Made by a program: the position numbers and the translations under genes
The notes under the pieces: model-generated
Database searches by the model: none
The model's input: only the letters and a program-made list of their open reading frames with translations
Told to the model about the DNA's origin: nothing
Shown here: one piece after another, positions 10,412 to 52,699 of the stretch
How positions within the stretch are numbered: position 1 is the first letter of the stretch
How the letters are laid out: each line of letters starts with the position of its first letter
Source: Fannyhessea vaginae DSM 15829
GTDB lineage: Bacteria; Actinomycetota; Coriobacteriia; Coriobacteriales; Atopobiaceae
Length of the DNA stretch: 64,000 nt
Reading direction: 5' to 3'
Assembly: GCF_000159235.2 (NCBI RefSeq)
Contig: NZ_ACGK02000001.1
Coordinates: forward strand, 868,001-932,000

Positions 10412-11350
10412 TTACATGTGTTTATCTGTTTGAGGTAAAAAGACCGACCAATCAGGAGTTGCTGATAAAATGGTACCTACAAATATAGCAATGCAACAGA
10501 TAATACTCATAAGATTAGGCATAGTAGCTGCATACAACGATGAAAAAATGAGAGCCCATGCGCAATAAGAAATATTGCAAGCCATCGCGCGTGCAGCACC
10601 TGTAACATCGATTGCTTTATAGTAAAACAAATACGACAAAGCACCTGCGACACCTGCGCCTATAACAAATATGCTGGCAGGTGCAACTGACATCTGTGCG
10701 ACAAAACCCCATGCACCAACTAAAGGCAGCACAATTAAAGCGTAGGTAAGACTGGAAGTAAGCTCATGAATTAAAAGCGCTACATCGCAATCTAGATCTT
10801 GGGTAGACTGTAGCCCCCATGAGGCAAAAACAGCACCAGAGCCCCATGCAAGAACACAGATAAATGCTGCTGCAACACCAATAATCGTGTTTCCTTCAGC
10901 TGAACCTTGTGCGGTTTGTAAGCCTACCATAATAACACCTGCAAGCGCCACAAAAAGGGCAACAAGACGTTGAGTATTCATTGATTCCTTAAGGAAGAAT
11001 ACCGCAAGAAATGTACCAACCGCGGGATAAAATGCCGAGATAATTGCAGTTGGTGCCGGTCCTATATTGTTGATACTCGACATATACGCATTCATGCCAA
11101 CAGGGCCGCTCATAAGAGCACCACAACATATGATGAGAGCTCCTTTTGTACGCAATGCCTGCAAAAACTGAGAAAATTTTCCGCGCGCAACAACAAGTGT
11201 AATCAAAACTAACACACTTATAATGTCGTGAACAGCCGCACACACCAAAGCCGCGTCAAGGGCACTATTAAACGGATGATACAAAAATGCAATACCTAAA
11301 ATACAGGTATCTAAACCCCATAAGATACCGCTTAAAAGACCAAATTTCAT
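10412..11350 (-). CDS. licB: EamA/DMT family transporter, LicB-like choline permease
   Basis: A 312-residue membrane protein with about ten helices arranged as two EamA repeats of the drug/metabolite transporter superfamily. LicB of Haemophilus and Streptococcus, which imports choline for phosphocholine synthesis, belongs to this superfamily. The assignment to choline is an inference from context: the gene directly follows the LicC/LicA fusion, with a 78-base gap on the same strand. The start has a strong GGGGAG site six bases upstream. On sequence alone it could be any DMT exporter or importer. Confidence 0.7.
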   Translation of the reverse strand: MKFGLLSGILWGLDTCILGIAFLYHPFNSALDAALVCAAVHDIISVLVLITLVVARGKFSQFLQALRTKGALIICCGALMSGPVGMNAYMSSINNIGPAPTAIISAFYPAVGTFLAVFFLKESMNTQRLVALFVALAGVIMVGLQTAQGSAEGNTIIGVAAAFICVLAWGSGAVFASWGLQSTQDLDCDVALLIHELTSSLTYALIVLPLVGAWGFVAQMSVAPASIFVIGAGVAGALSYLFYYKAIDVTGAARAMACNISYCAWALIFSSLYAATMPNLMSIICCIAIFVGTILSATPDWSVFLPQTDKHM

Positions 11351-11428
11351 ATATGTCTCCCCTGCTTATGCCTAAGCACTCATGCATTCATAGCATCTAG
11401 GTATTCAAGAATACGAATATTGCAATGA

Positions 11429-13222
11429 CTAGTTTTGCCAAGTTGGAGCAATGCCGCTTTCATACCAAGTTAAAATTTTATCGATATATTCGCTGGCATA
11501 GCGGTAGTAAATATAGAGCCACACATCAACATTTTCGCCTTCGGCCTCTTTTTCAAGCGACCAAATATACCAGCACCAGCCTGCAAAAATAACGTACGCC
11601 CAAAAATGTCGACGCTCTTTATCCGAAGCTTTTCTCCCAAAATAATAATCAATACATCTATTGGCACGTTCTTCGTCAAGCGAGCAGCATACACAAAATG
11701 TCCCAAAGTCATTGGCAATATCTGACATTCCTGCATATTCCCAGTCGATAAGCGTCATGGTGTCATGTTCGTCTAACAAAAGGTTAAGCATATAGAAGTC
11801 ATTATGTGAAATGCATAAAGGATACCCATCAGCCTCTGTATACGATTTAAGTAAGGTTACTTTTTCTTTTAATTCATCGTAACCATAAATATCAATAGGT
11901 CCATGCTCTTTAAGAAGCTGCTCGTAGTGCAAACCTTCATCAAAGAAATCAAAGTGACGAGCAAGTTGTGCCGAGCTATCATGAAGCGTTCTACACATCT
12001 GCATAGCACGTTTAAGCTGCGCATCATCGGTTGGATCAAGTGCACGCGCGTTGGGTATAAAACGCGAAATTTTCCAACCCTTTTGTTCATCTTCATAGAT
12101 AAATGTAGCGTCAAGCCCTAATTCGCGAGCTTTAAGAAGCGCCGCGCGCTCGCTTGTTCTATCGATCATTTTATCGGTACCAGCGCCTGGATGACGATAC
12201 ACATATTCTTTACCGCACACCGTAAAATGACAAGACAAATTGGTAAGACCCTGCTTAAGTGGATAAAATCCACCAATATCTTGTTTTGTGCACGAAAGAG
12301 TTTTACAAATATTATCAAATACCTCAGAGTCAACATTTTCCAAAAAATGAGGATCAAACGATCTTAAATCCTCAAGTGAGTCAAATTCTTTAATGTCGTC
12401 ACTCGAATACAATTTTGAAACCATGGACAATTCTTTAAGATGATCAACATAAATATCCTCCCAAAGTTTATCTGCAGTCTCGGGTTTCGGGTATTCTGCC
12501 TGCAAAATATCAACAAATTTTTGTGAAAAAGCCGTATCAAAATACACATGACCAAGCATAATATCACTGTTATGACCACCAATAGTGACCTTGGTAATAC
12601 GCCCTTGTGCCCCTGTTGTTACGCACCATTCATTTGTATCACCATCTACATGTTGCGTTGCGTAATATGCTCTGTAGACATAGCGCTCAAAGGGGTTTAT
12701 AACAAAGTAATTATCAGAGGAACAAATAAAGGTGTTACTCAGGCGATCTTTGACATGCCATAAGGTTGAGTTATTATTGCGTGTTGCATAATCAGGATTC
12801 ACTATAATATCCACGCCATATTTTTGTGCAAGATAGAAAAAACATTCCTTTTTATAGCCAACAACAACCGTAATATCTGAGATACCCTTTTCGAGCAGTT
12901 GCTTAATTTGGCGCTCAATAAGGACTTCGCCCTTAACTTTAAGAACACCTTTAGGACGTTCGTAGGAAATGGGTGCAAAACGAGACGATAAACCAGCCGC
13001 CATAATAATTGCATTGTGGACTTGGTAGGGCTTTAATGCAGCGCGACCCTTTTCACTTAGACGTCCATCTACAAGATATCCATCACGTTTTGCCTGCGTA
13101 TATGCCGTATTTACTGAACCTAATGACATGTGTGTTATTTCGCAAAGCTCACGCTGGGTATAGAGCTGCTGGGAGCTTCCTTGCGCGCGCAAAATATAAA
13201 ACATAGCTCTACTAAGACTCAT
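11429..13222 (-). CDS. licCA: Winged-helix/LicC cytidylyltransferase/LicA choline kinase fusion
   Basis: A 597-residue three-part protein. Residues 1-66 form a winged-helix domain (LYTQRELCEITHMSLGSVNTAYTQAKRDGYL). From about 69 to 300 lies a nucleotidyltransferase with the NAIIMAAGLSSRF and RPKGVLKVKGEVLIERQI signature of LicC, CTP:phosphocholine cytidylyltransferase. From about 315 to the end is a choline-kinase fold with ISHNDFYMLNLLL as catalytic loop and LIDWEYAG as metal-binding loop, as in LicA. It would turn choline into CDP-choline in two steps. LicC-LicA fusions are known in Treponema denticola. Two ATG codons are adjacent; 13222 lies six bases after AAAGGA and is preferred over 13225. 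The gene has its own promoter and operator. Confidence 0.88.
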   Translation of the reverse strand: MSLSRAMFYILRAQGSSQQLYTQRELCEITHMSLGSVNTAYTQAKRDGYLVDGRLSEKGRAALKPYQVHNAIIMAAGLSSRFAPISYERPKGVLKVKGEVLIERQIKQLLEKGISDITVVVGYKKECFFYLAQKYGVDIIVNPDYATRNNNSTLWHVKDRLSNTFICSSDNYFVINPFERYVYRAYYATQHVDGDTNEWCVTTGAQGRITKVTIGGHNSDIMLGHVYFDTAFSQKFVDILQAEYPKPETADKLWEDIYVDHLKELSMVSKLYSSDDIKEFDSLEDLRSFDPHFLENVDSEVFDNICKTLSCTKQDIGGFYPLKQGLTNLSCHFTVCGKEYVYRHPGAGTDKMIDRTSERAALLKARELGLDATFIYEDEQKGWKISRFIPNARALDPTDDAQLKRAMQMCRTLHDSSAQLARHFDFFDEGLHYEQLLKEHGPIDIYGYDELKEKVTLLKSYTEADGYPLCISHNDFYMLNLLLDEHDTMTLIDWEYAGMSDIANDFGTFCVCCSLDEERANRCIDYYFGRKASDKERRHFWAYVIFAGWCWYIWSLEKEAEGENVDVWLYIYYRYASEYIDKILTWYESGIAPTWQN

Positions 13223-13291
13223 CATCTGTCCTTTACAACTACGATACCAACATGGTATCCATGCGTAACGCTCTCTTGCGTTCATTTTTTA

Positions 13292-13320
13292 AGTATAGTT
13301 ATAATTAATTGAACGTTCAA
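13292..13320 (-). promoter_or_regulatory. Promoter of licCA
   Basis: On the minus strand TTGAAC (13315-13320) and TATACT (13292-13297) are separated by exactly 17 bases, a near-consensus sigma-70-type promoter. The predicted start of transcription is about 65 bases upstream of the licCA ATG. Confidence 0.75.
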
Positions 13321-13323
13321 TTA
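13306..13323. promoter_or_regulatory. Perfect 18-bp palindrome over the licCA -35 box
   Basis: TAATTGAACGTTCAATTA reads the same on both strands and covers the whole -35 element of the licCA promoter. A bound dimer would block RNA polymerase. The natural candidate regulator is the winged-helix domain at the start of LicCA itself, but a TetR-type protein would also fit. Confidence 0.65.
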
Positions 13324-13392
13324 TTTTATAGAGCAAACATAATCTGAACACAAAGAGGCCTGGATACGGAAGCAGGTCATAGTTGCATGATT

Positions 13393-14649
13393 TTACCGTG
13401 TCTTTGATCGATTGATCTGTTTCGTTTGTATAAATCCCGCAAGCGTAACGCATAGAAAAACAAGCGCTACGATTAACATCGCCGCGTCGTATATCATGAC
13501 CGCACCACGAATTTTATAGGTACCTACCAATCCATATGCACAAAATGCAAACAAAGACGCAAGACCATACGCAGCAAAAATGTACTTTTGCATACGCATC
13601 GTTACTACAGCATAGTAAAGAATTATGCCACTTGCATTAAAAAGCCCACCAACAATGAGAAGCATAAGTTCAAGCTTATATGCTGCAAGTGGAACCCCAT
13701 AAAGTGCACCAAGAACTTCGATTCCTAAAAACCATGCCGCCAAACAAGTTACAAATGTAGCCGCGCAAATTGCCATGAATCCTTTAAAAATGATCTGCGC
13801 AAAGTCTTTAATACGCGCTTGAGACCAGCACAGTGCCATATCGGTAAGAAGCGGCTTAAAGACAAAGCCACTTAAAAGATTGATAACTAAAGACGGCATA
13901 AATAAAATGGAATAGAGTGCCTGATAATCACGGGTTAAATACATATCTATTGCATATTTGGGAGCATTGGTGATATATACAAGAAAGAATGAGCCTATAC
14001 AAAGTGGCAAACACGTCCAAAACAGTTTAAGTATGGACGCAGGCTTAAATGACGGACGAAGCGACACAAACTGTTGAGCAAAAGGAACATTGCAAAAGAA
14101 AAATGCAAACGCAGACAAAATAAAAGCGACGATACATGAGGAGCATAGATCTTTAGTGATAAACGCCGCGATACAAAAACCAAGCATACACGCAATAATA
14201 CGTGCGAAAAACGCGCGCCCGGCAATGTCAAGTCTGCCTCTCTGCTGAAACATACCATGAAATACATCTTCAAACGCATCAAAGAGCTTAAGCAATGCTA
14301 TCAACATAATGCTTAGTGCAACTGGTGTAATTCCATTCGTATAAAGTGTATATCCAACGATTACCACACACATAACAAGACAGCTTACGTAACGCGCGCC
14401 AAGGTATGTTGCAAACGAAAATCGTTCTTGAGAATCAGTTGCTTGGTAGGAGCGAATTTCAAAATGGCCAATCACTTGAAACTGTTGGGACAAGGCAAAC
14501 GCAATCGCAAAAATACCCGCAGCTTCAAGACCTAAAATGCGTGTAGTCATAAGCAACAAAATTGCGCTGGAAAGTGCATTTGCTGCACTTCCCAGCGTAT
14601 TCCATATATAATTTTTTCTCAGTTGTGCCTTACTTTGAGCTATTTCCAC
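13393..14649 (-). CDS. Polysaccharide flippase (Wzx/TacF-like)
   Basis: A 418-residue membrane protein of the MOP superfamily with about 12-14 hydrophobic segments and a basic N-terminus (KAQLRKNYIWNTLGSAANAL) typical of oligosaccharide flippases. It would move a lipid-linked glycan across the membrane. The GTG start lies three bases after the licD stop, and its AAGGA site lies inside the end of licD, so the two are translationally coupled. In pneumococcus the flippase TacF sits beside licD and moves choline-decorated teichoic acid units; the same partnership is likely here, but TacF identity is an inference from the neighbourhood. Confidence 0.8.
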   Translation of the reverse strand: MEIAQSKAQLRKNYIWNTLGSAANALSSAILLLMTTRILGLEAAGIFAIAFALSQQFQVIGHFEIRSYQATDSQERFSFATYLGARYVSCLVMCVVIVGYTLYTNGITPVALSIMLIALLKLFDAFEDVFHGMFQQRGRLDIAGRAFFARIIACMLGFCIAAFITKDLCSSCIVAFILSAFAFFFCNVPFAQQFVSLRPSFKPASILKLFWTCLPLCIGSFFLVYITNAPKYAIDMYLTRDYQALYSILFMPSLVINLLSGFVFKPLLTDMALCWSQARIKDFAQIIFKGFMAICAATFVTCLAAWFLGIEVLGALYGVPLAAYKLELMLLIVGGLFNASGIILYYAVVTMRMQKYIFAAYGLASLFAFCAYGLVGTYKIRGAVMIYDAAMLIVALVFLCVTLAGFIQTKQINRSKTR

Positions 14650-14652
14650 GCG

Positions 14653-15522
14653 TTATTCCTTAATGTCTTTATACGGTCCAAAGTCTAAACGAGACGGATA
14701 ATGATTTTTTCGATCATTTTCGGGCGGTAATTGCATATAATCGCCAAATCCACGTCTGAGCATAACATCGTAAGCTTTAGGCAGATTAACCGTAATAGTT
14801 TCAAAGGGAGCACGGATAGCCGGATAAGCCTCCGCACGCGTTACCGCCCATGCATGAGGATCTCTGTCCATAAAATCAACGTAGGTTTCGCCTTGTTCAT
14901 GTTCTGCCAGACGAGCATAATGCTCCCAACGTGCATGAATCCAGCGAGGCGAAACATGAAAAATTTTCATTGCCCAATGAGCCAGATAGCACACGACCAA
15001 CACTAAACCTTTAAGCGGCTGAGAAAGCTGAACATGAGGTGCGGGCGTAGCGCGCAAAAAAGCGAGACGTGCAAAAAACCATGTCATACGTCTTTGACGC
15101 TCTAACGTACGCGGATCATTCGAGGGTTTATCCATTGCAAACAGTCCAATACCGATAGGATATTGAAAAGGACAATGTGCAAATTCCTCTGGAACGCAAA
15201 ACGTATTCTTGAGTGAAAAATTAGCATTACAAGCAGGGAAAAACGGATCTGTTCTTCCGCTGACAAGCTCATAGGCTTCCCCCATTTCTTGTGGAGCCTC
15301 GCGCATAAAGCGTTCGTAGTCATCTCTAAAAAGGGCAATATCAACATCGTCATCCCAAGGAACAAAACCTTTATGGCGAACCGTACCAATTGCGGTACCA
15401 CCATACACATAATAATCAATGTTCAGCTTTTGACAAATCCTATCAAATTCACCCAAAATCATCGTTGAAATGAGCTGAAGTTGTCTTAATTCATGAGGTT
15501 CATATTGTTTATACGACATCAT
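14653..15522 (-). CDS. licD: LicD family phosphotransferase
   Basis: A 289-residue protein with the LicD core near residue 40: YYVYGGTAIGTVRHKGFVPW followed by DDDVDIALFRDDYERFM, the metal-binding aspartates of the nucleotidyltransferase fold. LicD enzymes transfer phosphocholine from CDP-choline to sugars of teichoic acid, lipopolysaccharide or capsule. Two ATG codons are adjacent (15522 and 15519) behind a GGAAG site, and either may be used. A hydrophobic stretch near residue 190 may hold it at the membrane. It is first in the minus-strand unit licD-flippase. Some LicD relatives transfer other groups, for example ribitol phosphate, so the exact donor is not proven. Confidence 0.88.
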   Translation of the reverse strand: MMSYKQYEPHELRQLQLISTMILGEFDRICQKLNIDYYVYGGTAIGTVRHKGFVPWDDDVDIALFRDDYERFMREAPQEMGEAYELVSGRTDPFFPACNANFSLKNTFCVPEEFAHCPFQYPIGIGLFAMDKPSNDPRTLERQRRMTWFFARLAFLRATPAPHVQLSQPLKGLVLVVCYLAHWAMKIFHVSPRWIHARWEHYARLAEHEQGETYVDFMDRDPHAWAVTRAEAYPAIRAPFETITVNLPKAYDVMLRRGFGDYMQLPPENDRKNHYPSRLDFGPYKDIKE

Positions 15523-15649: not shown

Positions 15650-16450
15650 GTGTATACATCTAACGACCATTGTTTTGTAATTTGCGCTTATAAAGATAGC
15701 CCCTATCTAGAAGATTGCATGCGCTCACTTAAAAACCAAAGTGTAACAAGTCGTGTGCTTTTAGTTACCTCCACGCCATCGCACACTATAGAACATCTTT
15801 GTTCACAATATGACATACCCTTTTATATTAATACCACCGATTCTCATGGCATAGGTGGCGACTGGAATTTTGCGTTATCACGTGCAACCACACAGCTTGT
15901 AACAATTGCACACCAAGACGACGTATATAAACCCCGTTATGTAGAAGAAATGCTTGCACATATAAATGCGGTCACAGATCCACTGCTGTATTTTTCGGGA
16001 TACGCAGAGCTGCGCGGAACTACAGAAGTTTGTGACAATCGTCTGTTGGGAATTAAACGCCTCATGCTTATGCCGCTTCAATTACGTCCTTTAGCTCACC
16101 TCAAACTCATAAAACGCTTAATTTTAGCTTTTGGCAACCCTATTTGTTGTCCTGCTGTCACCTATGTTATGCATAAATTTACACGTCCTCTTTTTGAAAC
16201 GAGCTATGGATCCAATCTTGACTGGCAAACATGGGAGTTTTTAAGTAGAAAACAAGGCACGTTTGTTTATAATCCAAAGCCACTTATGTGTCATCGAATC
16301 CATGAGGGCTCAGAAACATCTCGTTTAATTGAAAATAATAAACGCGAACAAGAGGACTTAAGCATGCTCAAACGTTTTTGGCCAACCTGCATTGCACGCG
16401 CCATCAACAAACTGTATGCACGAGGACAACAAAGTAACAAAAACTCGTAG
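15650..16450 (+). CDS. Glycosyltransferase family 2
   Basis: A 266-residue enzyme with a GT-A fold. It opens with HCFVICAYKDSPYLEDCMRSL, and the metal/nucleotide-binding segment QLVTIAHQDDVYKPRYVEEML contains the DxD-like DD. No membrane helix is obvious, so it should work on the inner face of the membrane on a lipid-linked acceptor. The start is GTG with an AAAGGAA site eight bases before it. It is divergent from licD with about 130 bases between, and is followed by another GT2 gene on the same strand. The sugar donor is unknown. Confidence 0.85.
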   Translation: MYTSNDHCFVICAYKDSPYLEDCMRSLKNQSVTSRVLLVTSTPSHTIEHLCSQYDIPFYINTTDSHGIGGDWNFALSRATTQLVTIAHQDDVYKPRYVEEMLAHINAVTDPLLYFSGYAELRGTTEVCDNRLLGIKRLMLMPLQLRPLAHLKLIKRLILAFGNPICCPAVTYVMHKFTRPLFETSYGSNLDWQTWEFLSRKQGTFVYNPKPLMCHRIHEGSETSRLIENNKREQEDLSMLKRFWPTCIARAINKLYARGQQSNKNS

Positions 16451-16582
16451 TGCTATATTGTTGTCTTTGCCAATCGAATTATATGTCATACGTATTAATT
16501 TTTGGAGTCTACAACCTAAATCTGGGTTCGGAAGAATATAAGATGAGAATCAAAAACTCTTATTTCAATTGGAGGTTTGCAC

Positions 16583-17812
16583 ATGCCCGTTGCATCTATC
16601 ATAATCCCATGCTATAACGCAAGTCTCTATATTTCTCAAACCATTGACTCGGCGTGCAAACAAACAGAACAAGACCTCGAAATTATCTGCGTTGATGACG
16701 GTTCTACCGATGACACGCTGTCTATTTTACACAAAAAAGCGGAACTAGACACCCGTATTAAGGTCTTCACACAACAAAATGCAGGTGAAGGACCTGCTCG
16801 CGAATATGGTCGAACGCAGGCTCACGGTCGCTGGCTTTATTTTCTTGACAGCGATGATCTTATGGAACCTACTCTCATTGAAAAAGCGGTCGCTCAAGGT
16901 GAGGCTACACGCGCCGATATGGTTATTTTTAAAACGCGTGAACTTGATAATCAAACAGGAGAGCTGCGCTCGTTTTACTGGTCGTTTGTTACCGATTGGC
17001 TCCAAGCACCTAAAGGAGTGAGCGAGTTAGTTGGAAAAACCGGCATTGATCGTATTGTATTAGATGGGATGAGCGGCGTATTTTCGCCACGCGAGCATCC
17101 AGAGCGTATCTTTAATTCCTTTCAAAATTGGGTCCATAACAAATTATTCAGAAAAAGTTTTGTTGACGCACGACATCTTGTGTTTCAGCCTGTACATAGA
17201 ACTGCGGACCTTCTCTTTGTTTGCAGAGCGCTTGCCGAGGCGGATCGCATTGCGCTTCTTGACGAAGAACTTCACCAATATCGCGTTAATAACACCGCGA
17301 GTGCGCTGTTTACTAGCGATTCGTATCCCTTAGATTTTTATGAAGCATTTTGCGAGCTTAAAGATTCATTAGAAAAGCAAGGCACATGGACACTCTATAG
17401 AGATTCGTTTGTAAACTGGGTACAAGAAGGCGTTGCAATGAATCTTCAGCGTGCGCGTTCGTACGAAGGTTTTATGCAAATTGTTCATACCATGCGAGAC
17501 GAAAATGGACTCGCGCGTTTAGGATTTTTGCAAAGCAGTAGAAGCACCGCAATAAATCCCGACCGCTGGGATAGATGTTATGCCATTTTGCATTCATCCA
17601 CCGAGGAGCTTTTATTCCTCTACTTTTCGCTGGAGCGTGCCGAAGTTATGCGCACACAAACGCAAAACTCGCAACAACGCTTGGATATAAAACATGCCTA
17701 TGAAACATGCCGTCCTATGCGTATTGGAAAAGCAGTGGCACGCGTTATCGATCGCCCTGGTATAAGCAATGCAGTACGAGTTCTTCATATAAAGAAACTA
17801 TTTGGATTATAG
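16583..17812 (+). CDS. Glycosyltransferase family 2
   Basis: A 409-residue glycosyltransferase. The N-terminal GT-A domain shows ASIIIPCYNASLYISQTIDS, the IICVDDGSTDDTLSIL nucleotide-binding segment and the WLYFLDSDDLMEPTLI DxD motif. The C-terminal third is mainly helical and not characteristic. ATG at 16583 sits seven bases after a strong GGAGG; the TTG two codons upstream overlaps that site and is rejected. Enzymes like this build repeat units of capsules or teichoic acids. Its place beside licD and the flippase suggests a role in the same surface polymer, which is an inference. Confidence 0.9.
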   Translation: MPVASIIIPCYNASLYISQTIDSACKQTEQDLEIICVDDGSTDDTLSILHKKAELDTRIKVFTQQNAGEGPAREYGRTQAHGRWLYFLDSDDLMEPTLIEKAVAQGEATRADMVIFKTRELDNQTGELRSFYWSFVTDWLQAPKGVSELVGKTGIDRIVLDGMSGVFSPREHPERIFNSFQNWVHNKLFRKSFVDARHLVFQPVHRTADLLFVCRALAEADRIALLDEELHQYRVNNTASALFTSDSYPLDFYEAFCELKDSLEKQGTWTLYRDSFVNWVQEGVAMNLQRARSYEGFMQIVHTMRDENGLARLGFLQSSRSTAINPDRWDRCYAILHSSTEELLFLYFSLERAEVMRTQTQNSQQRLDIKHAYETCRPMRIGKAVARVIDRPGISNAVRVLHIKKLFGL

Positions 17813-17864: not shown

Positions 17865-18461
17865 CTAAAACGAAACTTTACTATCTCTTAAGAAAGGATG
17901 CGTTTTATCTTTTTCGGACAAAATAAGCTCTGATGGATCAAACGCTGTATCGCCTGATAAAGCAGGCCACTCAATGGCAATATCAGGGTCATTCCACATA
18001 ATACCACCCTCATCACCTGGGTGATAGATGTCGTCACACTTATAACAAAATTCGGCCTCATCGCTCAAAACCAAAAAACCATGGGCAAATCCTTGAGGTA
18101 TAAAAAATTGCGTATGATTGTCTTCAGAAAGAATAACGCCTTCCCATTGGCCATAGGTAGCAGAGTCTTTTCTTAAATCGACCGCTACATCAAAGACGCG
18201 GCCTTTTACCACGCGAACAAGCTTTGATTGCGGATGATGAATTTGAAAATGGAGGCCGCGCAAAACACCACGGCAAGATTTTGAGTGATTGTCCTGAACA
18301 AACTTGGTAGTAATACCTGCTTGTATAAAGTCGGGTTCTTTATACGTTTCCATAAAGAAGCCACGCTCATCGCCAAATATCTTTGTATTGATAATGAAAA
18401 GTCCATCAACTTTACTGCGATGAAAGACAAAATTTCCCTGTTCAATGCATGGTGATTCCAT
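17865..18461 (-). CDS. rfbC: dTDP-4-dehydrorhamnose 3,5-epimerase
   Basis: A 198-residue enzyme for the third step of dTDP-L-rhamnose synthesis. Diagnostic segments are DERGFFMETYKEPDF, the catalytic-histidine CRGVLRGLHFQ and FIPQGFAHGFLVLSD. The ATG at 18461 follows AAGGAG by six bases; an upstream in-frame ATG adds 14 unrelated residues and is rejected. It stands alone on the minus strand between plus-strand glycosyltransferase genes, about 5.8 kb from rfbA-rfbD-rfbB, so the rhamnose pathway is split into two transcription units. Confidence 0.95.
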   Translation of the reverse strand: MESPCIEQGNFVFHRSKVDGLFIINTKIFGDERGFFMETYKEPDFIQAGITTKFVQDNHSKSCRGVLRGLHFQIHHPQSKLVRVVKGRVFDVAVDLRKDSATYGQWEGVILSEDNHTQFFIPQGFAHGFLVLSDEAEFCYKCDDIYHPGDEGGIMWNDPDIAIEWPALSGDTAFDPSELILSEKDKTHPFLRDSKVSF

Positions 18462-18668
18462 AGTAACTCCTTGATATAACCCGATGTATGAGCGCAGAGG
18501 CATTTACCTCTGGTGCGCTCACGAAACTCCTTTATTGTAACCCATAGAAAATGCGATAAACCTACTTGGCGTTTCTTCATAAATTCATAATAGATGAGCA
18601 TACACGGCAAATTACACGTGCGTAAATAGTGTATACTCATGCATGTAAAAACACTTATGAGGAGTTTT

Positions 18669-19349
18669 ATGTCAAAAATATTAGCAGTTGTTCCTGCTTA
18701 CAATGAAGCCGCCTGTATAGAGCGAACTATTCGGGAATTAACGGCCAGTTGTCCTCAAATAGATTATCTCGTTGTAAACGATGGCTCAAAAGATGCAACC
18801 GCACTTATCTGCGAGCAGAACAAGTTTAATTACTTGTCTCTCCCCATTAACTGCGGGCTTACTGCAGGTTTTCAAACAGGTATGAAATATGCCTATCGGC
18901 ATAACTATGATGCTGTTGTTCAATTTGATGCAGATGGACAACATATGCCCGACTATATTATGAGTATGTACGAATGCATGTGCGCTCAAGATGCCGACAT
19001 TGTCATTGGTTCGCGTACCGGAGTTGATAAACCCACGGGCGCGCGCGGACTTGGATCGCGCCTTATTTCGGCGCTTATTCATCTTATAGCTCACATATCA
19101 ATTCAGGATCCAACATCGGGGATGCGTATGTACAACAAAAAGCTTATACGCACCTACGCTCAAGCTTTTGACTTAGCACCAGAGCCCGACGCATTGGCAT
19201 ATTTTGCGCGACACGGTTATACCATTAAGGAAGTGCCCGTAAAAATGCGCGAACGACAAGGCGGCCAAAGCTACTTTGATATTGGTCATATCATTTCATA
19301 CATGAGTCGTACCTGCATGTCTATCGTTTTATTTCAGTGGTTTAGATAA
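18669..19349 (+). CDS. Polyprenyl-phosphate glycosyltransferase (DPM1-like GT2)
   Basis: A 226-residue GT2 enzyme with AVVPAYNEAACIERTIREL at the start, VVQFDADGQHMPDYI as the DxD segment, and the PTSGMRMYNKKLI and VKMRERQGGQSYF motifs typical of enzymes that load a sugar onto undecaprenyl phosphate. It has no C-terminal membrane helices of its own; the next gene encodes a small DUF2304 membrane protein that often accompanies this type. ATG at 18669 follows GAGGAG at a good distance. With the two downstream membrane proteins it probably supplies lipid-linked single sugars for surface glycan decoration outside the cell. Confidence 0.9.
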   Translation: MSKILAVVPAYNEAACIERTIRELTASCPQIDYLVVNDGSKDATALICEQNKFNYLSLPINCGLTAGFQTGMKYAYRHNYDAVVQFDADGQHMPDYIMSMYECMCAQDADIVIGSRTGVDKPTGARGLGSRLISALIHLIAHISIQDPTSGMRMYNKKLIRTYAQAFDLAPEPDALAYFARHGYTIKEVPVKMRERQGGQSYFDIGHIISYMSRTCMSIVLFQWFR

Positions 19350-19413: not shown

Positions 19414-19812
19414 ATGTCAATTATCTTACGTATATTGTTGATCATAGGTGCTGTAGGACTTATGGCTGTTGTTTTACGAAGCATTAAAAAGTCACGCATA
19501 CAGATAGAAGACTCACTTTTTTGGGTATCGTTCGTGGGAATTGTAGTTATTATAGCTTTGGTACCTGCTGTAATGATCTTTTTTGCACGCATATTAGGTT
19601 TTGTTTCTACCAGTAATTTTGTCTTTTTATGTGTAGTGGGTATCTTGCTTATCAAGGTCTTTACCTCATCTGTCGAAATTTCTCGCCTTAAATTTAGACT
19701 TAATCAGCTCGCGCAAGAAATGGCACTTGCGCAAAAGAAAACACGCGAAGACAACGAAAAGAAACTCCCCTTTGAAGAAATTGTTGAGCCATTTAAGAAC
19801 ACACGCATTTAA
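19414..19812 (+). CDS. DUF2304 family membrane protein
   Basis: A 132-residue protein with three hydrophobic helices (about residues 3-20, 35-60 and 70-85) followed by a charged, probably coiled-coil tail rich in Gln, Lys and Glu. It matches the DUF2304 family, which is regularly encoded next to polyprenyl-phosphate GT2 enzymes and may anchor or assist them. GGGAGAAC lies upstream of the ATG. It follows the GT2 gene by 64 bases and precedes the large membrane protein by about 80, so the three probably form one operon. Confidence 0.8.
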   Translation: MSIILRILLIIGAVGLMAVVLRSIKKSRIQIEDSLFWVSFVGIVVIIALVPAVMIFFARILGFVSTSNFVFLCVVGILLIKVFTSSVEISRLKFRLNQLAQEMALAQKKTREDNEKKLPFEEIVEPFKNTRI

Positions 19813-19890
19813 TACGTAGTACCAATTTAAACGTATCAAATTATTGCAAGCGTCAAACTTTTGGCGAGATCTATTACAAGGAATGAGCCG

Positions 19891-22029
19891 ATGACATCAC
19901 TTCTTATTGCATATCTCTACGGACTTTTACTTCTCGTTATACCTGGGTACACACTCGGTACAACTCTGCCTATTTCAAAGGTATGGAGACTGATCTTTGC
20001 TCCTCTTTTAAGCGCAGCGCTTATATCTATAATTGGTGAAGTAGCCTATCGCTTAGGAATAACGCTTACCACATCACGTTTAGTAACACTTGCGCTTCTT
20101 AGTTCTTGTATGATTCTTGTCATATATACAGCCTATCTCGTACACACCAGTGGCGAGTCGCTTAAAACGATAGGTAAAGAAGTTATACGGCAAATATGCG
20201 TCCGCAATCCAAAGGACGCAGGCAGCACTCCAAAGACGTACTCAACACTTGCTCCTATTGACTGGCGCATCGCATTATTTGCGGTAGTTTTTGCAGTGCT
20301 TGTTGGCTGGGCTTGCTATGCACAACCTCTAGGAGACCCCAATCAAATTGGTACGCTGTGGGATATTATGTGGCATGTCTCCTCACCGCGCACCATGATT
20401 AAAACGGGGATTTTTTCCTCATTTAATACCAGTATGTATTTACCCACAGAAGCAAACCTTGCGCCTTTTGACGTTGTTACTAGAACCATGTATCCATCCA
20501 TTTGGCATATCTTGGCAGCGTGTATATCTCAAGGCACAAATACACCAATTTCAATAGCTGTTCATGCGCTTAATTTACTGTGTATTACCTTCATTTTTCC
20601 TCTGGGCATTTTAGGATTTATGAAATGTATCATCCCAAATCGTCGCTTTGTTCTCATTGCAACTGCCACCATATCTCCATTCTTTTTCTCATTTGTTTGG
20701 TTTGCTTTAATCTACGGACCAATTTTACCCTTTGACTTTGCTCAGTGTATGATACCTGCCTTATGTTGCAGTTGGTTTTATTTGGTAAAAGGTTGGAAAT
20801 CATCTCAAAAAGTACTTTTGATTTTATTGTTTATATTGTCATCTTATACGATGGCTTTCACACATACATCAGGAATTTTTACGGCCGCAATTATCCTATG
20901 GCCTTGGACTGCATGGTACCTATATCATCTCGACTCTCATTGCATAAACTGGTTTGGCAAAAGAATATCACCAAAGGTCGTCAGCTTTGTGTTCGTGTGT
21001 TTATGTGTTGCTATATGGGTAGTTTTCTTTTTCCTTATTGTTAAAGATGGATACTTACGAGGGTATAACTGGTATGCAGAAAAAGACATGCTGACAGCAA
21101 TCAGAGATACTTTATTTCTCAACTTTGCGAATGGTCGTATTTATGTATATATTATCCCACAGCCACTCCTACCTGTACTTGTAGCAGTAGGCATCTATGC
21201 GACTGTAAAACGGACAAAAACCTCGTTTTTGCTTTTCCCATTTTTCTATTTTGTACTTACCACATTTTATATACAACAATTTGATTCGATCGTAAAAAGA
21301 TTTCTATCGGGATTTTGGTATACCGATTTTGCACGTACGGGCTCATGTGCAAGTTTGATTGCTATCATGCTTGCTGCTCAAGGTCTAGATACCATTATTG
21401 ATAAAGCATACAAGTTCATGCAAACTTCTAAACTCACACAAAAGATCAGCCGCGCTAAAAGTCTTCATACGCTTTGTGCAGCAGCTGTCCTTGCACTCTC
21501 GGTCCTATGCTTCTTTTTTCTTAAAAACCCAAGTAAAAACTATAATCAAACTGAGCCTTTTGAATATCGTAATCAAATCAGAGCCTTTTACACACACAAC
21601 GATGATTTAAGCCAAGAAGAGAGAGCGTTCATGCTGAAAGTTCGCGATCTTGTTGGAACAAATACTACGATACTCAATAATCCCTATGACGGCTCATTGC
21701 TAGGATACGGGCTTTTTGATCTTAAAATTGTATATCGTCATCCATATATATGGTATGGAGATGAGCTCCATCATACGCAATGTTTGCGCACAAATATTAT
21801 AAACTGGACAAGGAGCGCAGAGTTAAGACAGGCACTTCAAGAAACAGGAGTTCGCTACGTTATGAAGCTTAACAAGCCTGGACAAATTTCGTTTGGATGC
21901 CAGTATATACCTCAACAGTTTGCAGGCATAAATTCTATAAACGATACAACTCCTGGCTTTAAGTGTGTACTGGCCGAAGGTACCATGCGTTTATATGAGA
22001 TAGACGATTCAGCGACAATTGCACAATAA
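19891..22029 (+). CDS. Large polytopic membrane protein, probably DUF6541-like
   Basis: A 712-residue protein with many hydrophobic segments and a C-terminal soluble part of roughly 150 residues. The overall shape resembles the DUF6541/GT-C-like proteins of Actinobacteria that often lie beside GT2/DUF2304 pairs. Such proteins are suspected lipid-linked sugar transferases acting on the outer side of the membrane. Near residue 145 is DPNQIGTLWDIMWHVSSPRT, with acidic and His residues on a predicted outer loop as expected for GT-C enzymes. ATG at 19891 follows AAGGA by about ten bases. The function is inferred from architecture and neighbours only. Confidence 0.65.
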   Translation: MTSLLIAYLYGLLLLVIPGYTLGTTLPISKVWRLIFAPLLSAALISIIGEVAYRLGITLTTSRLVTLALLSSCMILVIYTAYLVHTSGESLKTIGKEVIRQICVRNPKDAGSTPKTYSTLAPIDWRIALFAVVFAVLVGWACYAQPLGDPNQIGTLWDIMWHVSSPRTMIKTGIFSSFNTSMYLPTEANLAPFDVVTRTMYPSIWHILAACISQGTNTPISIAVHALNLLCITFIFPLGILGFMKCIIPNRRFVLIATATISPFFFSFVWFALIYGPILPFDFAQCMIPALCCSWFYLVKGWKSSQKVLLILLFILSSYTMAFTHTSGIFTAAIILWPWTAWYLYHLDSHCINWFGKRISPKVVSFVFVCLCVAIWVVFFFLIVKDGYLRGYNWYAEKDMLTAIRDTLFLNFANGRIYVYIIPQPLLPVLVAVGIYATVKRTKTSFLLFPFFYFVLTTFYIQQFDSIVKRFLSGFWYTDFARTGSCASLIAIMLAAQGLDTIIDKAYKFMQTSKLTQKISRAKSLHTLCAAAVLALSVLCFFFLKNPSKNYNQTEPFEYRNQIRAFYTHNDDLSQEERAFMLKVRDLVGTNTTILNNPYDGSLLGYGLFDLKIVYRHPYIWYGDELHHTQCLRTNIINWTRSAELRQALQETGVRYVMKLNKPGQISFGCQYIPQQFAGINSINDTTPGFKCVLAEGTMRLYEIDDSATIAQ

Positions 22030-22189: not shown

Positions 22190-23293
22190 TTAGCGATTTT
22201 CATACATCTTTTTGTAGTAGCTTTGATACGCACCTGAGCAGACATGCTCGGTCCATGCCTGATGCGATAAATACCAATCAATGGTTTTAATAATACCGTC
22301 TTCATACGTTGTTTCTGGGTACCAACCAAGTTCATCTTTAATCTTGGTAGGCTCAATACCATAACGCCTATCATGACCTTTTCTATCCCCAACGTAGCGG
22401 ATTAAATCTTCTGTGATTGCACGGTCTCCTGTGACGTTACGGACGTGCTCAACAATGGTTTTTACAATGTAGATATTTGAGCGCTCATTATGACCGCCAA
22501 CGTTATAGGCATTGCCCAACCGTCCGCGTTGTAGCACCATATCAATTGCCTTGCAATGATCATCTACATACAGCCAATCGCGCACATTAAGACCATCTCC
22601 ATAGACCGGCAATTCTTTATGGTGAAGCGCATTATGAATCATAAGCGGAATCAATTTTTCTGGAAACTGATATGGTCCGTAATTATTTGAACAGCGCGTC
22701 ACAAGTGCGGGAAACTTATACGTATCCCAATAAGCGCGCGTGAGCATGTCTGCAGATGCTTTTGAAGCAGAATACGGGCTATGACCACACAATGGTGTAT
22801 CTTCATGAAAATAGGTAGTATGTGCAGGATCTTTAGGACTCCCGTTTGGATTTACCTGATCTGGAATTGCAAGCGCACCGTAAACTTCGTCAGTTGAAAC
22901 TTGTAAAAAGCGATGATCACCAAAACTTCCTTTATCATCAAGCCAAAGCTTCTTACAACAGTTAAGAAGGGTAACGCAGCCTAAAACATTTGTTTCGACA
23001 AAAATCTGAGGAGTCTCAATGGAGCGATCTACGTGGGACTCAGCTGCAAAATTTACCACATAGTTAGGTTTATAGGTACGCAGCACGCGTGAAACCTCAT
23101 CAGCATTACGAATGTCCACACGCTCAAAGGAATACCGCGAATCATCTTCTATGGAACGCAGGTTTTCAAGATTTCCTGCATAGGTAAGGCAGTCCATGTT
23201 AACGATGCGAATATCGGTATAGTTACGCAGCATATAAAGGATAAAATTAGAGCCAATAAAGCCTGCACCGCCGGTAACCAGATATGTTTTCAT
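22190..23293 (-). CDS. rfbB: dTDP-glucose 4,6-dehydratase
   Basis: A 367-residue enzyme of the extended SDR family catalysing the second step of dTDP-rhamnose synthesis. The Rossmann motif VTGGAGFIGSNFI is at the N-terminus, the STDEVYGAL and YSASKASADML active-site segments follow, and VRDWLYVDDHCKAI completes the family pattern. ATG at 23293 has AAAGGAAC upstream; the longer frame adds 13 unrelated residues. It is last in the rfbA-rfbD-rfbB operon, 52 bases after rfbD. Confidence 0.97.
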   Translation of the reverse strand: MKTYLVTGGAGFIGSNFILYMLRNYTDIRIVNMDCLTYAGNLENLRSIEDDSRYSFERVDIRNADEVSRVLRTYKPNYVVNFAAESHVDRSIETPQIFVETNVLGCVTLLNCCKKLWLDDKGSFGDHRFLQVSTDEVYGALAIPDQVNPNGSPKDPAHTTYFHEDTPLCGHSPYSASKASADMLTRAYWDTYKFPALVTRCSNNYGPYQFPEKLIPLMIHNALHHKELPVYGDGLNVRDWLYVDDHCKAIDMVLQRGRLGNAYNVGGHNERSNIYIVKTIVEHVRNVTGDRAITEDLIRYVGDRKGHDRRYGIEPTKIKDELGWYPETTYEDGIIKTIDWYLSHQAWTEHVCSGAYQSYYKKMYENR

Positions 23294-23345
23294 GATTGTT
23301 CCTTTCACGTTTGCGAGGTTGCATGTAAACACATGCTGACAATAG

Positions 23346-24275
23346 TTAGTGCGCGTTCAAAGAGCTCTGTACATATTCGATATGTTCAAAATAGCTTGCC
23401 AGCGCATCTGACCAAGGGCGCATTTCGTTGCCTATGGTTTGTGCAAGATGTGCATTTTCTAAGCTTGAATAGCAAGGACGCTGCGCCGCTTGAGGATTCA
23501 TGCGCTTATACTCTTGAGAGGTACATGCAACAACCTTACACGCAAGCTGCGCGTGCTTCATAATTGCCGAAGCAAAATCGAACCATGAACAAGTTCCTTC
23601 ATTAGTCACATGATAAATTCCATAGGACTGAGTTTGAGCAATACGCAAAATCTCGTATGCCAAATCATTTGCAGAAGTTGGATTTCCCATCTGATCACAA
23701 ACAACAGAAATCTGGTCATGGGTTTTACCAAGCCCAATCATGGTTTGCACAAAATTCTTGCCGACATATCCATAAAGCCAAGCAGTTCGAACAACAAATG
23801 ATTTTGGATTTTGCGCCAAAACTAAAGCTTCGCCAGCAAGCTTAGTACGACCGTATGCACTTATTGGACATGGATAATCATCTTCGGTGCGAGGACGTGC
23901 CTCGGTTCCGCTAAAAACATAATCGGTAGAAACTTGAACGAGTTTTGCGCCTTGTTCTGCACATATTCGTGCAAGATTGAGAGGTCCTTGTGCATTGGCA
24001 CTAAAGGCCGCTGCCTCGTGTTGCTCACATCCGTCAACGTTGGTCATAGCGGCACCGTTAATAACCAAATCATAAGGATCTCTGTCAGCAATATAGGCAC
24101 GCACAGCTTCATAATCAGAAATGTCTAGATCTTCAAGATCGGCGTAATCAACATGTGCGTTAGCATATTCAGAAGGCACTGGCCCTATTTCGGCTTGTAA
24201 GGTGCTCAAAAGGCGTTGCAATTCACAGCCAAGCTGGCCATGTGAACCCGTAATAAGAATATGAAGTGGTTTCAT
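23346..24275 (-). CDS. rfbD: dTDP-4-dehydrorhamnose reductase
   Basis: A 309-residue SDR-family reductase for the last step of dTDP-L-rhamnose synthesis. It starts with ILITGSHGQLGCELQRLL, a variant of the NAD(P)-binding GxxGxxG motif, and has VQVSTDYVFSGTE and YGRTKLAGEALV, the latter holding the catalytic Tyr-x3-Lys. Its ATG shares one base with the rfbA stop (TAATG), so the two genes are translationally coupled. Confidence 0.96.
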   Translation of the reverse strand: MKPLHILITGSHGQLGCELQRLLSTLQAEIGPVPSEYANAHVDYADLEDLDISDYEAVRAYIADRDPYDLVINGAAMTNVDGCEQHEAAAFSANAQGPLNLARICAEQGAKLVQVSTDYVFSGTEARPRTEDDYPCPISAYGRTKLAGEALVLAQNPKSFVVRTAWLYGYVGKNFVQTMIGLGKTHDQISVVCDQMGNPTSANDLAYEILRIAQTQSYGIYHVTNEGTCSWFDFASAIMKHAQLACKVVACTSQEYKRMNPQAAQRPCYSSLENAHLAQTIGNEMRPWSDALASYFEHIEYVQSSLNAH

Positions 24276-25177
24276 TACTCAAAATCCTTTTCACTTGGTA
24301 TGATTTTACCTTCGGCAACAGCTTTAAGATGCCGACCATAATCGCTTTTTCCGTAACGATCAGCACAGCATAACAGCTGTTCTTGGGTGATCCATCCATT
24401 CTCGTATGCAATTTCTTCGGGAACACTCACAGGTAAATCCTGAGCTTGTTCAACCGTACGTACAAATTGCGATGCTTCAAACAACGATTCCATGGTTCCC
24501 GTATCGAGCCAGGCAAAACCACGACCCAAAGTAACAACATCTAAACTGCCATCATCTAGGTACATACGATTAAGATCGGTGATTTCATACTCGCCACGGG
24601 CGGATGGTGTAACTTTTGACGCAAAATCAACTACGCGATTATCATAAAAATAAAGCCCCGTAACTGCATAATTGCTTTTAGGCACCAAAGGCTTTTCTTC
24701 AATAGACACCGCGTTAAAATGCTTGTCAAATTCAACCACCCCAAAACGCTCGGGGTCATCAACTCGATAGCCAAATACCGTTGCACGACCTTGTTGCGCA
24801 CGCGCAGAAGCTTTGCGCATACGAAGCGCAAGGCCGTTACCATAAAAAATATTATCGCCCAACACTAATGCACATGCATCTGTCCCAACAAAATCTTTGC
24901 CTATAATAAAAGCTTGGGCAAGCCCGTCTGGACTTGGTTGTACAGCATACGAAAGAGATATACCAAAATCATCTCCTGTACCTAACAGGCGTTTGAAATT
25001 AGGTAGATCATGAGGCGTTGAGATAATCATGATATCTCGAATACCTGCAAGCATAAGGGTTGACAACGGGTAATACACCATTGGTTTATCATATACAGGC
25101 AAAAGCTGTTTGCTAGTAACGGTGGTAAGCGGATAAAGTCTTGTACCTGAACCACCTGCTAAAATGATACCTTTCAC
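24275..25177 (-). CDS. rfbA: Glucose-1-phosphate thymidylyltransferase
   Basis: A 300-residue nucleotidyltransferase that makes dTDP-glucose, the first step of the rhamnose pathway. It opens with [17 protein letters not shown] and continues with [20 protein letters not shown], the classical RmlA signature. [12 protein letters not shown] is the metal-binding region. The start codon is GTG with a GGGG site just upstream. It heads the minus-strand operon rfbA-rfbD-rfbB. The roughly 270-base gap before the divergent mrp gene must hold its promoter, though no clear boxes could be chosen. Confidence 0.97.
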
Positions 25178-48555: not shown

Positions 48556-48838
48556 TCTTGTATCAAATCAGACTCCGTTTTCTCCGCAATGGTTTGTAAC
48601 AAATGAGTGCCAAGTTTGTTTTGCAGCAGATTTAATTCAACTGTGCAGAGAAAACGTATGCCATGCGAAAAGCGCATAAAACTCCATTCAAACATACCTT
48701 ATAAGCTGGCTCTAACACATGCGTATACAAGCATAAATCTGCCTAATTTTCAAAGAATTTATGGACATATTGCAGCACAATAACATTGCGCACTCAACAA
48801 ATCCTCTGTCACTGTTATGCGAAAGGAGTGCGTTTTTT

Positions 48839-51800
48839 ATGCGCCAACGTCCCGTAAAAGGAATAATAGGTAACCATAGAATTTGGTGTGTTTATGCCAA
48901 ACAACTTTGTCATACCTTGCATTTTATGCTCAATAGATATGCCACGCATGTCCAAGCTTTATATGTACCTCGGTTTTTTATGAATCTACAGCGCCCTAAA
49001 CAAGCAAAATATCAAACAATACTTCTAACAAGTTTCTTTGCATGCCTGCTGTTTGCAACATTTTCGCAGGCAAAGCCAATTAACTTAGCTGGTGGCGGTA
49101 CGGTAGAACTTCATTCAGACGGTACAATTACAGGTACATGCTATCAAAAGTTTGACTTGCAAAATTATAAGAATAATCCCTGGTCGCTCGCTGAATTTAA
49201 TGTTACTATGCCCGATGGTGTAATCATCAAAACGCAATGTATCAACCCAGACAGATTTGTTTCTGCCGATGGATTTTACTCATTCACAGGAGTTCCTGAT
49301 GCAAGTGGAAAATCCTATGAGATAACTGTTCATTCGGCGGTATCTGCAAAATATGCAGGGTATGGAAAAGATGTAGACACAGGTTATGGGCATGGTAATA
49401 TTGGGCAAAACACCTCTACAGCTGGCTGCCATCCAAAATGGTCACCACACATGACAGGCTGGATTGCCATTCAAAAAGCTAGTTCAAATCCCGATTGTAG
49501 CGACCATAATTCCATGTATTCCCTTGAAGGTGCGCAATATGATGTGTATGATACCCAAGGACAGGTTGTAGATACCATTACCACTGATGAAAATGGATAT
49601 GGGTGTTCTCATGAGCTTCTGCCTGGCTACTATAAGGTATGGGAAAGAACCGCACCAAAAGGTTACGCACTTGACACTCAAGGACATGCTGTAGATGTCT
49701 TGGCAGGTGATACTCAAACACTGAATGTAGTAGATACCCCTCAAAATGACCCTGTTCGTATGGTGGTACAAAAAATAGACGCAGATACGCAAACTCCTAC
49801 AGGCGAAGGAGCAGGAACACTTGAAGGAGCAGAATTTACCTTAAAGTTCTATCCTCGTGAAAGTGCAACAGGTGAGCCTGCGCGCACCTGGGTGCTTAAA
49901 ACTGATAAGGACGGTGTAACATCACCTCGTAAAGCGTTGGTTAATCCTGAGATTTATCTAGCAGATGTTCCACAAGATATGTTTTATCTTAATAGTGATA
50001 ATAAACCTATTATTCCCCTCGGCACACTTACCATTGAGGAAACAAAAGCACCAAGCGGCTATCTGCTCAATTCTCACGATGTTCACACCGTGCATATCAC
50101 ATCTGATAATACAAGCGAAGAAGAAGTACACAGCTATGTTGTTCCTAAGCATAATGAACAAGTACAACGCGGTGGCATTCGCATAGAAAAGCTAGATCAA
50201 GAGCTTATGAGTAATAAGACACAAGGTGACGCAACACTTGAAGGTATTACCTTTGCGGTTGTAAACTTAAACCCTCAAGCTGTTAAAACATCTTTAGGTG
50301 TATGTGAACCTCAACAAGTATGTGCTCGTATTACGACCACCAATAAAGATGGTCACTTTATAGCACAAACCTCTGATCAAGATCTACCTTATGGACACTA
50401 TAGAATCTATGAGGAAAGCTCTAATGATTCATACTTAAATGATGGTTTTGAAGCTGAGTTTGATATTACCCACGATAAAGAACTAGTAAGTCTAACAGAC
50501 GCTAACTCATGCGCAAAAGATAGCGTTGTAAGAGGTGGTATTAAGCTTGGAAAGATAGATAAGGAGCTAAACGTACACTCACCTCAAGGCTCAGCAACAC
50601 TAGAAGGAGCAGAATTTAGCATTTATAACAAAAGCGCAGCACCTGTACAAATAGGTGATAAACTCGTAGCTCCTAACGAGCTTGTTACCACACTTACCAC
50701 CGATGAAACAGCTTGTGCTGAAACTGATAAGCGTTTTCTTCCCTATGGAACGTATCTTATACAAGAAACCAAAGCTCCTAGAGGATATGAACTTAATAGT
50801 ACATGGCAACGTCTTGTAAAAATCAGAAAAGATGGAACTTTGTATGACTTATCAAGTGAGAAAGAATCAGTAGATGATCAAGTAAACCGTGGTGATATTC
50901 GCTTAATTAAGCGAGATGATCAAACCCAAAAACCTCTAAGCGGTGTTATCTTTAAGCTCACAAGTAAAACAACTGGTGAAACACATCTGCTTATGACTGA
51001 TGAAAATGGTGAAATTAACACCTCATCTGAGTTTGTAAAGCACTCATACATGACCAATCAAAATGATAGTGCATTAAACGCTGATGGTAGATGTGACGCA
51101 ACTAAGCTTGTGATGGATACAGGTGTATGGTTTGGCGGCACACAAGACACTGAAGATGGAGCAAAGGTATGCGATACACTGGGAGCACTGCCTTATGATA
51201 CCTATACCATTCAAGAACTTAGTTCACCTCAAAACAAAGGTAAAAAGCTTATAAGCTTTGATATACAGCTCACTCGTCCTCACTATAACCTGATTCTAGG
51301 AACGCTTAATAATAAGCCAGCTGAATCCTTTATCAGTGAACTTTTAAGTACTAACTTAAATCATAGTGCTTATACAGAAGAAAAAACTACCCTCACCGAT
51401 ACGCTTTCCTTTGAGAATCTAAACGTAGGTTCAAGCTATACGGTAAGCGGATACTTAGTAGATAAAGATACAGGAAATGTAGTACAAGACGCACAGGGTA
51501 AGGATATACGTGTAGAGAAAACCTTTACTGCACGTATGGCAGCTGATAGGGTAAAGCTTGTGTATACCCTCAATGCAAAGGGTCTTAATGGTAAAAGCGT
51601 TGTAGCGTTTGCTACCCTGAAAGATAAAGATGGAAACATCATCTTTAGTGAAAAAGACTTAGACGAGCCTGATCAAAGCGTAAGCTTTACTGATTCCCCA
51701 ATGCCGCCTACTACACCAGACGAGCCGCCAACACCGCCTGTCACTCCACCTGATGAGCTACCTACTACACCACCTGACGAGCCGCATGCTCCCCTTGCAA

Positions 51801-52267: not shown

Positions 52268-52699
52268 CTACTTTTCTGAAAAAGATTCTGCTGACGCATT
52301 TCGTAATGTCAGTAGCAACAAAACAAGACCTGCACCCACGAGCACATGAGATATACCAGCAAAGCCCGTCAAGATCATCGAAAGTTGCTGTGAAATGGTA
52401 CATCTCGTAACCTGAATTATGCCTCGCACAGCCATAGATAAAGCTAATAAGGGCAAGCCAAGATTATACACATACAAAAAAATACGAAACGTTTTGTTTT
52501 TCTCCAACGCCTGCGTGCGGGTAAATAGAGCTAATAGTAAAAATACAAACATTCCTAAAATAAAAAGATGCGTATGCACTTTACCTAAGCTTGTCACACC
52601 ACTAAAATCACAGTATTTGGTAAACTCTCGATAAAAAACACCGCTGGCTGCAGCTGCTCCTGCATAACACAAAGTCAAATTAAAATATTTTCTATTCAT
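52268..52699 (-). CDS. DUF2871 family membrane protein
   Basis: A 143-residue protein with four hydrophobic helices. NRKYFNLTLCYAGAAAASGVFYREFTKY and KVHTHLFILGMFVFLLLALF match DUF2871, a small Firmicutes membrane family of unknown function; the conserved HTH resembles a metal- or haem-binding membrane histidine pair. ATG at 52699 overlaps the upstream gene's TGA (ATGA), so the two are translationally coupled. AAAGGA lies about nine bases upstream. It is the last gene of the TetR-controlled pair. Confidence 0.8.
   Translation of the reverse strand: MNRKYFNLTLCYAGAAAASGVFYREFTKYCDFSGVTSLGKVHTHLFILGMFVFLLLALFTRTQALEKNKTFRIFLYVYNLGLPLLALSMAVRGIIQVTRCTISQQLSMILTGFAGISHVLVGAGLVLLLLTLRNASAESFSEK

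Follow-up and report, generated by a model that had tools for sequence, protein, structure and literature searches.

The 64-kb stretch of Fannyhessea vaginae DSM 15829 analysed here (NZ_ACGK02000001.1, positions 868,001 to 932,000; the window) carries four adjacent minus-strand genes of a putative phosphocholine (Lic-type) locus, among them a fusion gene, licCA, that is preceded by two inverted repeats. The original prediction had read the four as a LicD transferase, a flippase, a fusion of winged helix, LicC and LicA, and a LicB-like permease. The open reading frames (ORFs), a Pfam scan of 45 window proteins (44 of the 49 ORFs of at least 150 aa, plus one of 132 aa) and solved relatives bear this out. 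licB (10412–11350) encodes a predicted choline permease of the DMT/EamA type (312 aa; EamA, 56 bits). Its only solved relative at E ≤ 0.01 in a sequence search was Streptococcus pneumoniae LicB (7b0k, 3e-34). licCA (11429–13225) encodes a LicC domain, a predicted CTP:phosphocholine cytidylyltransferase (residues 88–315; 12341–13024), followed by a LicA domain, a predicted choline kinase (residues 319–610; 11456–12331). Pneumococcal LicC (1jyk) was the best solved relative of residues 89–311 (E = 1.3e-40) and pneumococcal LicA (4r77) that of residues 345–587 (E = 1.4e-21), both by sequence search. LicA was the top solved match by fold as well. The Pfam scores of the fusion protein were 39 bits for NTP_transf_3, 43.9 for APH and 42.8 for Choline_kinase. 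The flippase gene (13393–14649; 418 aa) encodes a Wzx-like member of the MOP superfamily, whose Polysacc_synt score of 26.7 bits lies under the cut-off of 28.2. A PDB sequence search with the flippase gave no match at E ≤ 0.1; in a fold comparison WzxE was the best, and TacF (9XZN) was absent, among the matches listed. licD (14653–15522) encodes a predicted phosphocholine transferase (289 aa; PF04991, 86 bits, cut-off 22.6) that is 71% identical to its counterpart in a related locus, L041. Judged by sequence, then, these genes are licC, licB, licA and licD, and the window holds the LicA-type kinase, LicC-type cytidylyltransferase, LicB permease and LicD transferase of a Lic-1 pathway.

The fusion ORF as first called (11429–13285, 618 aa) probably includes some 20 residues too many at its N terminus, and translation is likely to begin at about 13225. 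We moved the start to Met21/22 because 16 of the 27 rows of alignment A1 start at column 21 or 22, residues 1–21 have a predicted local distance difference test score (pLDDT) below 50 in the structure model, AAAGGA directly precedes the ATG ATG at Met21/22, and the first-called ATG overlaps a half-site of the repeats described below. The winged-helix domain (residues about 21–88; 13022–13225) has model helices at residues 26–37, 44–51 and 55–67, the last being the recognition helix with the sequence SLGSVN. Q44, R45, L55, G56 and N59 are invariant in all 27 aligned rows. In Pfam, PF24409 and HTH_24 matched this domain, both below cut-off. The modelled helices and the conserved recognition helix point to a DNA-binding domain joined to a metabolic enzyme.

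Upstream of licCA lie two abutting 35-bp inverted repeats, operator 1 (GTTCA-N25-TGAAC; 13280–13314) and operator 2 (13315–13349), which span the licCA–licB promoter region. The pattern GTTCA-N24/25-TGAAC matched twice in the 64 kb, both times upstream of licCA, against 0.19 matches expected; 1 of 100 shuffles reached two. A promoter-like TTGAAC-17-TATACT (13292–13320, minus strand) lies inside the operators. It is a consensus match only, and the region held 14 promoter-like matches against 15.4 expected from shuffles, so there is no enrichment. The reading of the element as GTTCA-N24/25-TGAAC follows from the comparison of relatives. Two other candidate motifs were rejected: TTGAACGTTCAA gave 6 matches with up to two mismatches in the window, against 4.9 expected, and GTTCAA-N8-36-TTGAAC had no exact match there.

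Of 296 genomes of Coriobacteriia, the class to which Atopobium fossor belongs, 103 had a match to the fusion, as had 64 of 200 genomes from the family of G010, an Actinomycetaceae bacterium; a wider class sample around G010 contained it in 1 of 296 genomes, G010 itself. We compared upstream regions from 91 of the 103 class genomes (one gene each; 12 were not fetched) and from 31 of the 64 family genomes. One gene at a locus edge (L006) was left out, and two entries (L002 and L023) are a single gene counted twice, neither with an operator by the pattern GTTC-N26/27-GAAC. Pairs of GTTCAA and TTGAAC with at most one mismatch were spaced by 22 in 22, by 23 in 38 and by 24 in 6 of 98 upstream regions. 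Each of the remaining spacings between 5 and 45 was seen in at most 3 of them, and the shuffle means at spacings 22 and 23 were 0.075 and 0.025. At either of these two spacings, the pair was found in 57 of the 98 regions with at most one mismatch and in 74 with at most two; after grouping of alike upstream regions, the numbers were 49 and 65 of 85 clusters. The Actinomycetaceae-family regions had spacing 23 with at most two mismatches in 29 of 31 cases (next spacing, 6). In a motif-free search for inverted pentamers, GTTCA-N25 came out on top in both sets, together with TGTTC-N27, its shifted form. GTTC-N26/27-GAAC was present in 107 of 128 regions, against 2 for the reversed control. Operator pairs also recur, abutting in L041, L042 and L044 and 5–6 bp apart in L057, L058 and L059. 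Together, these sites make up a conserved operator at the fusion gene's own promoter.

In the loci examined, the operator is nearly restricted to this gene. Twenty 20-kb loci contained 25 core sites. Of these, 23, spread over 17 loci, preceded a fusion gene by no more than 300 bp; the other two were found in the region where a second fusion paralogue starts (L047) and within a different ORF. None of 87 homologues of other lic genes, rml, glycosyltransferase, DUF6541, murJ, uvrA or ybaK genes had an operator upstream, compared with 14 of 21 fusion ORFs with called starts. Five of 163 unassigned ORFs had one; in four of the five it was a licCA operator, three of these ORFs being divergent and the fourth a licCA gene whose start was mis-called. 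Genome-wide, 78 of 296 genomes have an exact site. We tallied 75 such sites among the matches listed; in fusion-bearing genomes, 21 immediately preceded a fusion gene, 6 were no more than 12 kb away from one and 18 lay elsewhere. The operator at the L047 paralogue (13416–13450 of that locus) has an inner spacer that is itself palindromic (GTTCAATCTATGG...CCATAGATTGAAC).

When the rows were grouped by residue 56, in the recognition helix, an operator was present in 97 of the 113 with Gly, in 9 of the 10 with Ala, in the single one with Thr and in none of the 4 with Asp or Glu. The form of the operator changed as well. Among Coriobacteriia rows with an operator, the A/T form accompanied Gly56 in 58 of 67 cases and Ala56 in 0 of 9; the Ala56 rows, which fall in at least two clades, had G/C (4), C/C (2), G/A (2) and A/C (1). 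Such co-change of helix and operator would be expected if the enzyme recognised the operator through its own helix.

These data are consistent with the following model. LicB would bring choline in, the LicA domain would phosphorylate it and the LicC domain would yield CDP-choline. LicD would then transfer phosphocholine to a lipid-linked glycan, and export of the phosphocholine-bearing glycan would fall to the Wzx-type flippase. The winged helix would bind the two adjacent operators over its own promoter and repress licCA–licB. Since the promoter-like element lies inside the operators, a bound protein would cover it, and repression is the natural reading of the direction. Control by the operators would extend to licCA and licB, which are 78 nt apart; the flippase gene and licD, which lie upstream, would be outside it. 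In 20 of 30 loci (L011–L040), the gene that directly follows the fusion encodes LicB (at least 35% identity). If the fusion represses its own gene, the enzyme that makes CDP-choline would also set choline import and activation. For the full model, a Lic-type locus on a rhamnose-glycan cluster in which the winged helix represses its own operon, we estimate a probability of about 0.68.

Choline as the substrate is supported indirectly by two lines of comparison. We counted choline-binding repeats (PF01473) in genomes with and without the lic fusion from the one Coriobacteriia sample (n = 296), kinship being ignored. At least four repeats were found in 47 of 103 genomes with it and in 4 of 193 without (odds ratio 40), and at least one in 57 of 103 and 13 of 193, respectively. 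Repeats of this type also occur in glucosyltransferases and other proteins among the matches listed, and their presence is therefore no proof of choline binding. In L055, a plus-strand gene (11139–12869) diverges from licCA across the operator and encodes a protein with a metallo-beta-lactamase fold and choline-binding repeats; its best solved match was the pneumococcal teichoic acid phosphorylcholine esterase (2bib, 2.8e-78). Similar metallo-beta-lactamase domains were seen in L054 (6867–8883, minus strand), L056 and L057, with a short match in L047; the Pce/CbpE-like copies of L054 and L056 are each split over two frames. When the fusion was compared with the LicA contact residues given in the part of PMC4364537 available to us, the catalytic T29, D176, N181, D194 and E196 and the aromatic cage residues Y197, W251 and W254 (LicA numbering) were retained. 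V178 was replaced by Tyr, Q31 and N32 were altered, and Y268 lay outside the alignment.

The lic genes adjoin a candidate glycan locus. Upstream of them lie three GT2 glycosyltransferase genes, assigned by Pfam (15650–16450, 16577–17812 and 18639–19349, all on the plus strand), genes for two membrane proteins, DUF2304 (19414–19812, plus; PF10066, 91 bits), which adjoins the third glycosyltransferase, and DUF6541 (19861–22029, plus; PF20176, 404 bits), and four dTDP-rhamnose genes: rmlC (17865–18503, minus; PF00908, 247 bits) and rmlB, rmlD and rmlA (22190–25177, minus), assigned from families and relatives. Downstream are uvrA, a gene for a ybaK-like tRNA-editing protein and murJ. A survey of relatives for the same gene order, proposed with the original prediction, found the order murJ, ybaK-like, uvrA, licB, licCA, flippase, licD kept in L041 at 48–71% identity, with a second licD added. 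L043, L046, L048 and L049 contain licB, licCA, flippase, two licD, rml genes and DUF6541 together. The first glycosyltransferase lies beside licD in all five of these loci, and the second is 66% identical in L041. The acceptor is probably a rhamnose-containing glycan, a reading that we base on the rml and glycosyltransferase neighbours and their retention in relatives.

Other features of these regions were also seen. The second, divergent LicD (about 32% identical to the window LicD; L041:15624–16487, L043:10877–11722, L046:7921–8832 and L048:11296–12141) was not found in the 64-kb window. Phosphoenolpyruvate (PEP) mutase was clear in 4 of 20 relatives and just over cut-off in one more. The idea that the second LicD transfers 2-aminoethylphosphonate (AEP) was unsupported: it is present in four genomes (G249, G003, G092 and G078) without a PEP mutase match over cut-off. 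Beside licB in L046 (11796–14228), we noticed, by eye from the sequence, what looks like a cytidylyltransferase–oxidoreductase fusion and a class V aminotransferase. Elsewhere in the window, a 1047-aa candidate surface protein (48761–51904, plus) has SpaA and T-Q ester-bond domains, and two minus-strand ORFs (60722–62047, 441 aa; 52696–53373, 225 aa) had no Pfam match at E ≤ 1e-4.

Several observations weigh against the model of a self-repressing choline enzyme. Thirty of the 75 tallied exact sites were in genomes without the fusion, and the exact pattern alone is not specific for the fusion gene. Where a row had several operator matches, the last was taken. The p values for residue 56 (6.5e-4 and 3.4e-7) ignore ancestry and are overstated, since the rows are related. 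Sixteen of the 113 Gly56 rows lacked an operator, as did L079, a Gly56 row that is the sister of two of the four acidic rows; and among the 30 Gly56 rows of the Actinomycetaceae (G010) family, 19 had the A/C form, 10 A/T and one G/C. Residue 56 is therefore not the sole determinant. In the LicA domain, E213, which contacts the choline nitrogen (PMC4364537, part available), is Cys at fusion residue 533, and this Cys is invariant in 27 of 27 aligned fusion proteins. LicC D105 is replaced by Ser and D192 by Glu, while D107 is retained; the accessible part of PMC6697681 gives Asp at the D105 and D192 positions in LicC and Glu in PntC. The substrate is not decided by residues alone. Moreover, 56 of 103 genomes with the fusion had fewer than four choline-binding repeats, no such repeat or Pce domain was found in the 64-kb window at E ≤ 1e-6, and the acceptor glycan is a guess from neighbouring genes.

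Could another regulator bind the inverted repeat, the winged helix being a passenger or dimerisation module in an ordinary lic locus? Other regulators may have an operator in common with their targets, Pfam scores of the winged helix are below cut-off, and some rows have operator or winged helix, one without the other. However, the operator changes or vanishes together with residue 56 of the fusion helix, and a general choline regulator would not predict its absence from all 87 neighbouring lic and glycan genes. We consider such an arrangement unlikely. Activation of an amino alcohol other than choline, for instance ethanolamine, is less probable still: LicA and LicC are the best matches, the aromatic cage is retained, choline-binding repeats co-occur, and in L055 one operator is common to licCA and the Pce-like esterase gene. 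The LicCA protein of Treponema denticola has LicC and LicA in one chain, as here, and serves phosphatidylcholine there (PMC8590670, part available), which would leave LicD unrelated if CDP-choline had the same fate in F. vaginae. Given that LicD, flippase and glycan genes are adjacent in the window and in L041, L043, L046, L048 and L049, we regard this fate as very improbable. A phosphonate (Pnt) cluster, with the cytidylyltransferase activating AEP, deserves hardly any weight. PntC, the AEP cytidylyltransferase of Atopobium rimae and T. denticola, is farther than LicC; here the enzyme is fused to a kinase, and PEP mutase was not found among the 45 window proteins scanned with Pfam.

The original prediction had called such a gene set notable in an actinobacterial relative. 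This could not be upheld, as published lic genes exist for A. rimae and Olsenella uli (PMC6697681, in the part available), and the fusion itself occurs in the 103 Coriobacteriia genomes given above. lic genes of Actinomyces have likewise been published, and for Gardnerella the available part of PMC2928729 describes a lone LicD only. The locus is not rare; the pathway adds one more member to an established type, and lic genes had been described in this group before. What we find new is a wHTH (winged helix-turn-helix)–LicC–LicA protein whose own promoter bears a matching operator that apparently co-varies with it. The literature searched, most subscription papers being outside reach, yielded no earlier account of either the winged helix or the operator.

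The locus shares with pneumococcal Lic-1 (licA, licB, licC, licD, tacF) the nearest solved relatives of LicA, LicB and LicC, the LicD family and an adjacent flippase. It differs in that licC and licA are fused behind a winged helix, have their own operator and lie in rhamnose-glycan surroundings, and in that the flippase is nearer to WzxE among the structures listed. The L055 protein resembles the pneumococcal esterase Pce/CbpE in its repeats and its match to 2bib; it is a feature of relatives and not of the window. NadR and BirA are enzyme-repressors that carry a DNA-binding domain on a metabolic enzyme and have an operator at the target promoter, and NadR combines DNA-binding, nucleotidyltransferase and kinase parts. 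The enzymes and the ligand differ here; the plan is alike, and common descent is not claimed. We favour, somewhat more cautiously than the full model, the view that wHTH–LicC–LicA combines three functions as an enzyme-repressor and is for choline what NadR is in its own pathway: it would sense its own intermediate or product (phosphocholine or CDP-choline) and, via paired 35-bp operators, repress choline import and activation. In some Coriobacteriia the operator would also govern the divergent Pce-like esterase, so that adding and removing phosphocholine would share one switch.

With phosphocholine on their surface, bacteria can engage host receptors, and choline-binding proteins have an anchor. 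If the model is right, many Coriobacteriia and Actinomycetaceae would have a simple control loop in which choline entry is gated by a biosynthetic enzyme that responds to its own product, and the pneumococcal trio of phosphocholine, choline-binding proteins and Pce esterase would extend to Coriobacteriia.

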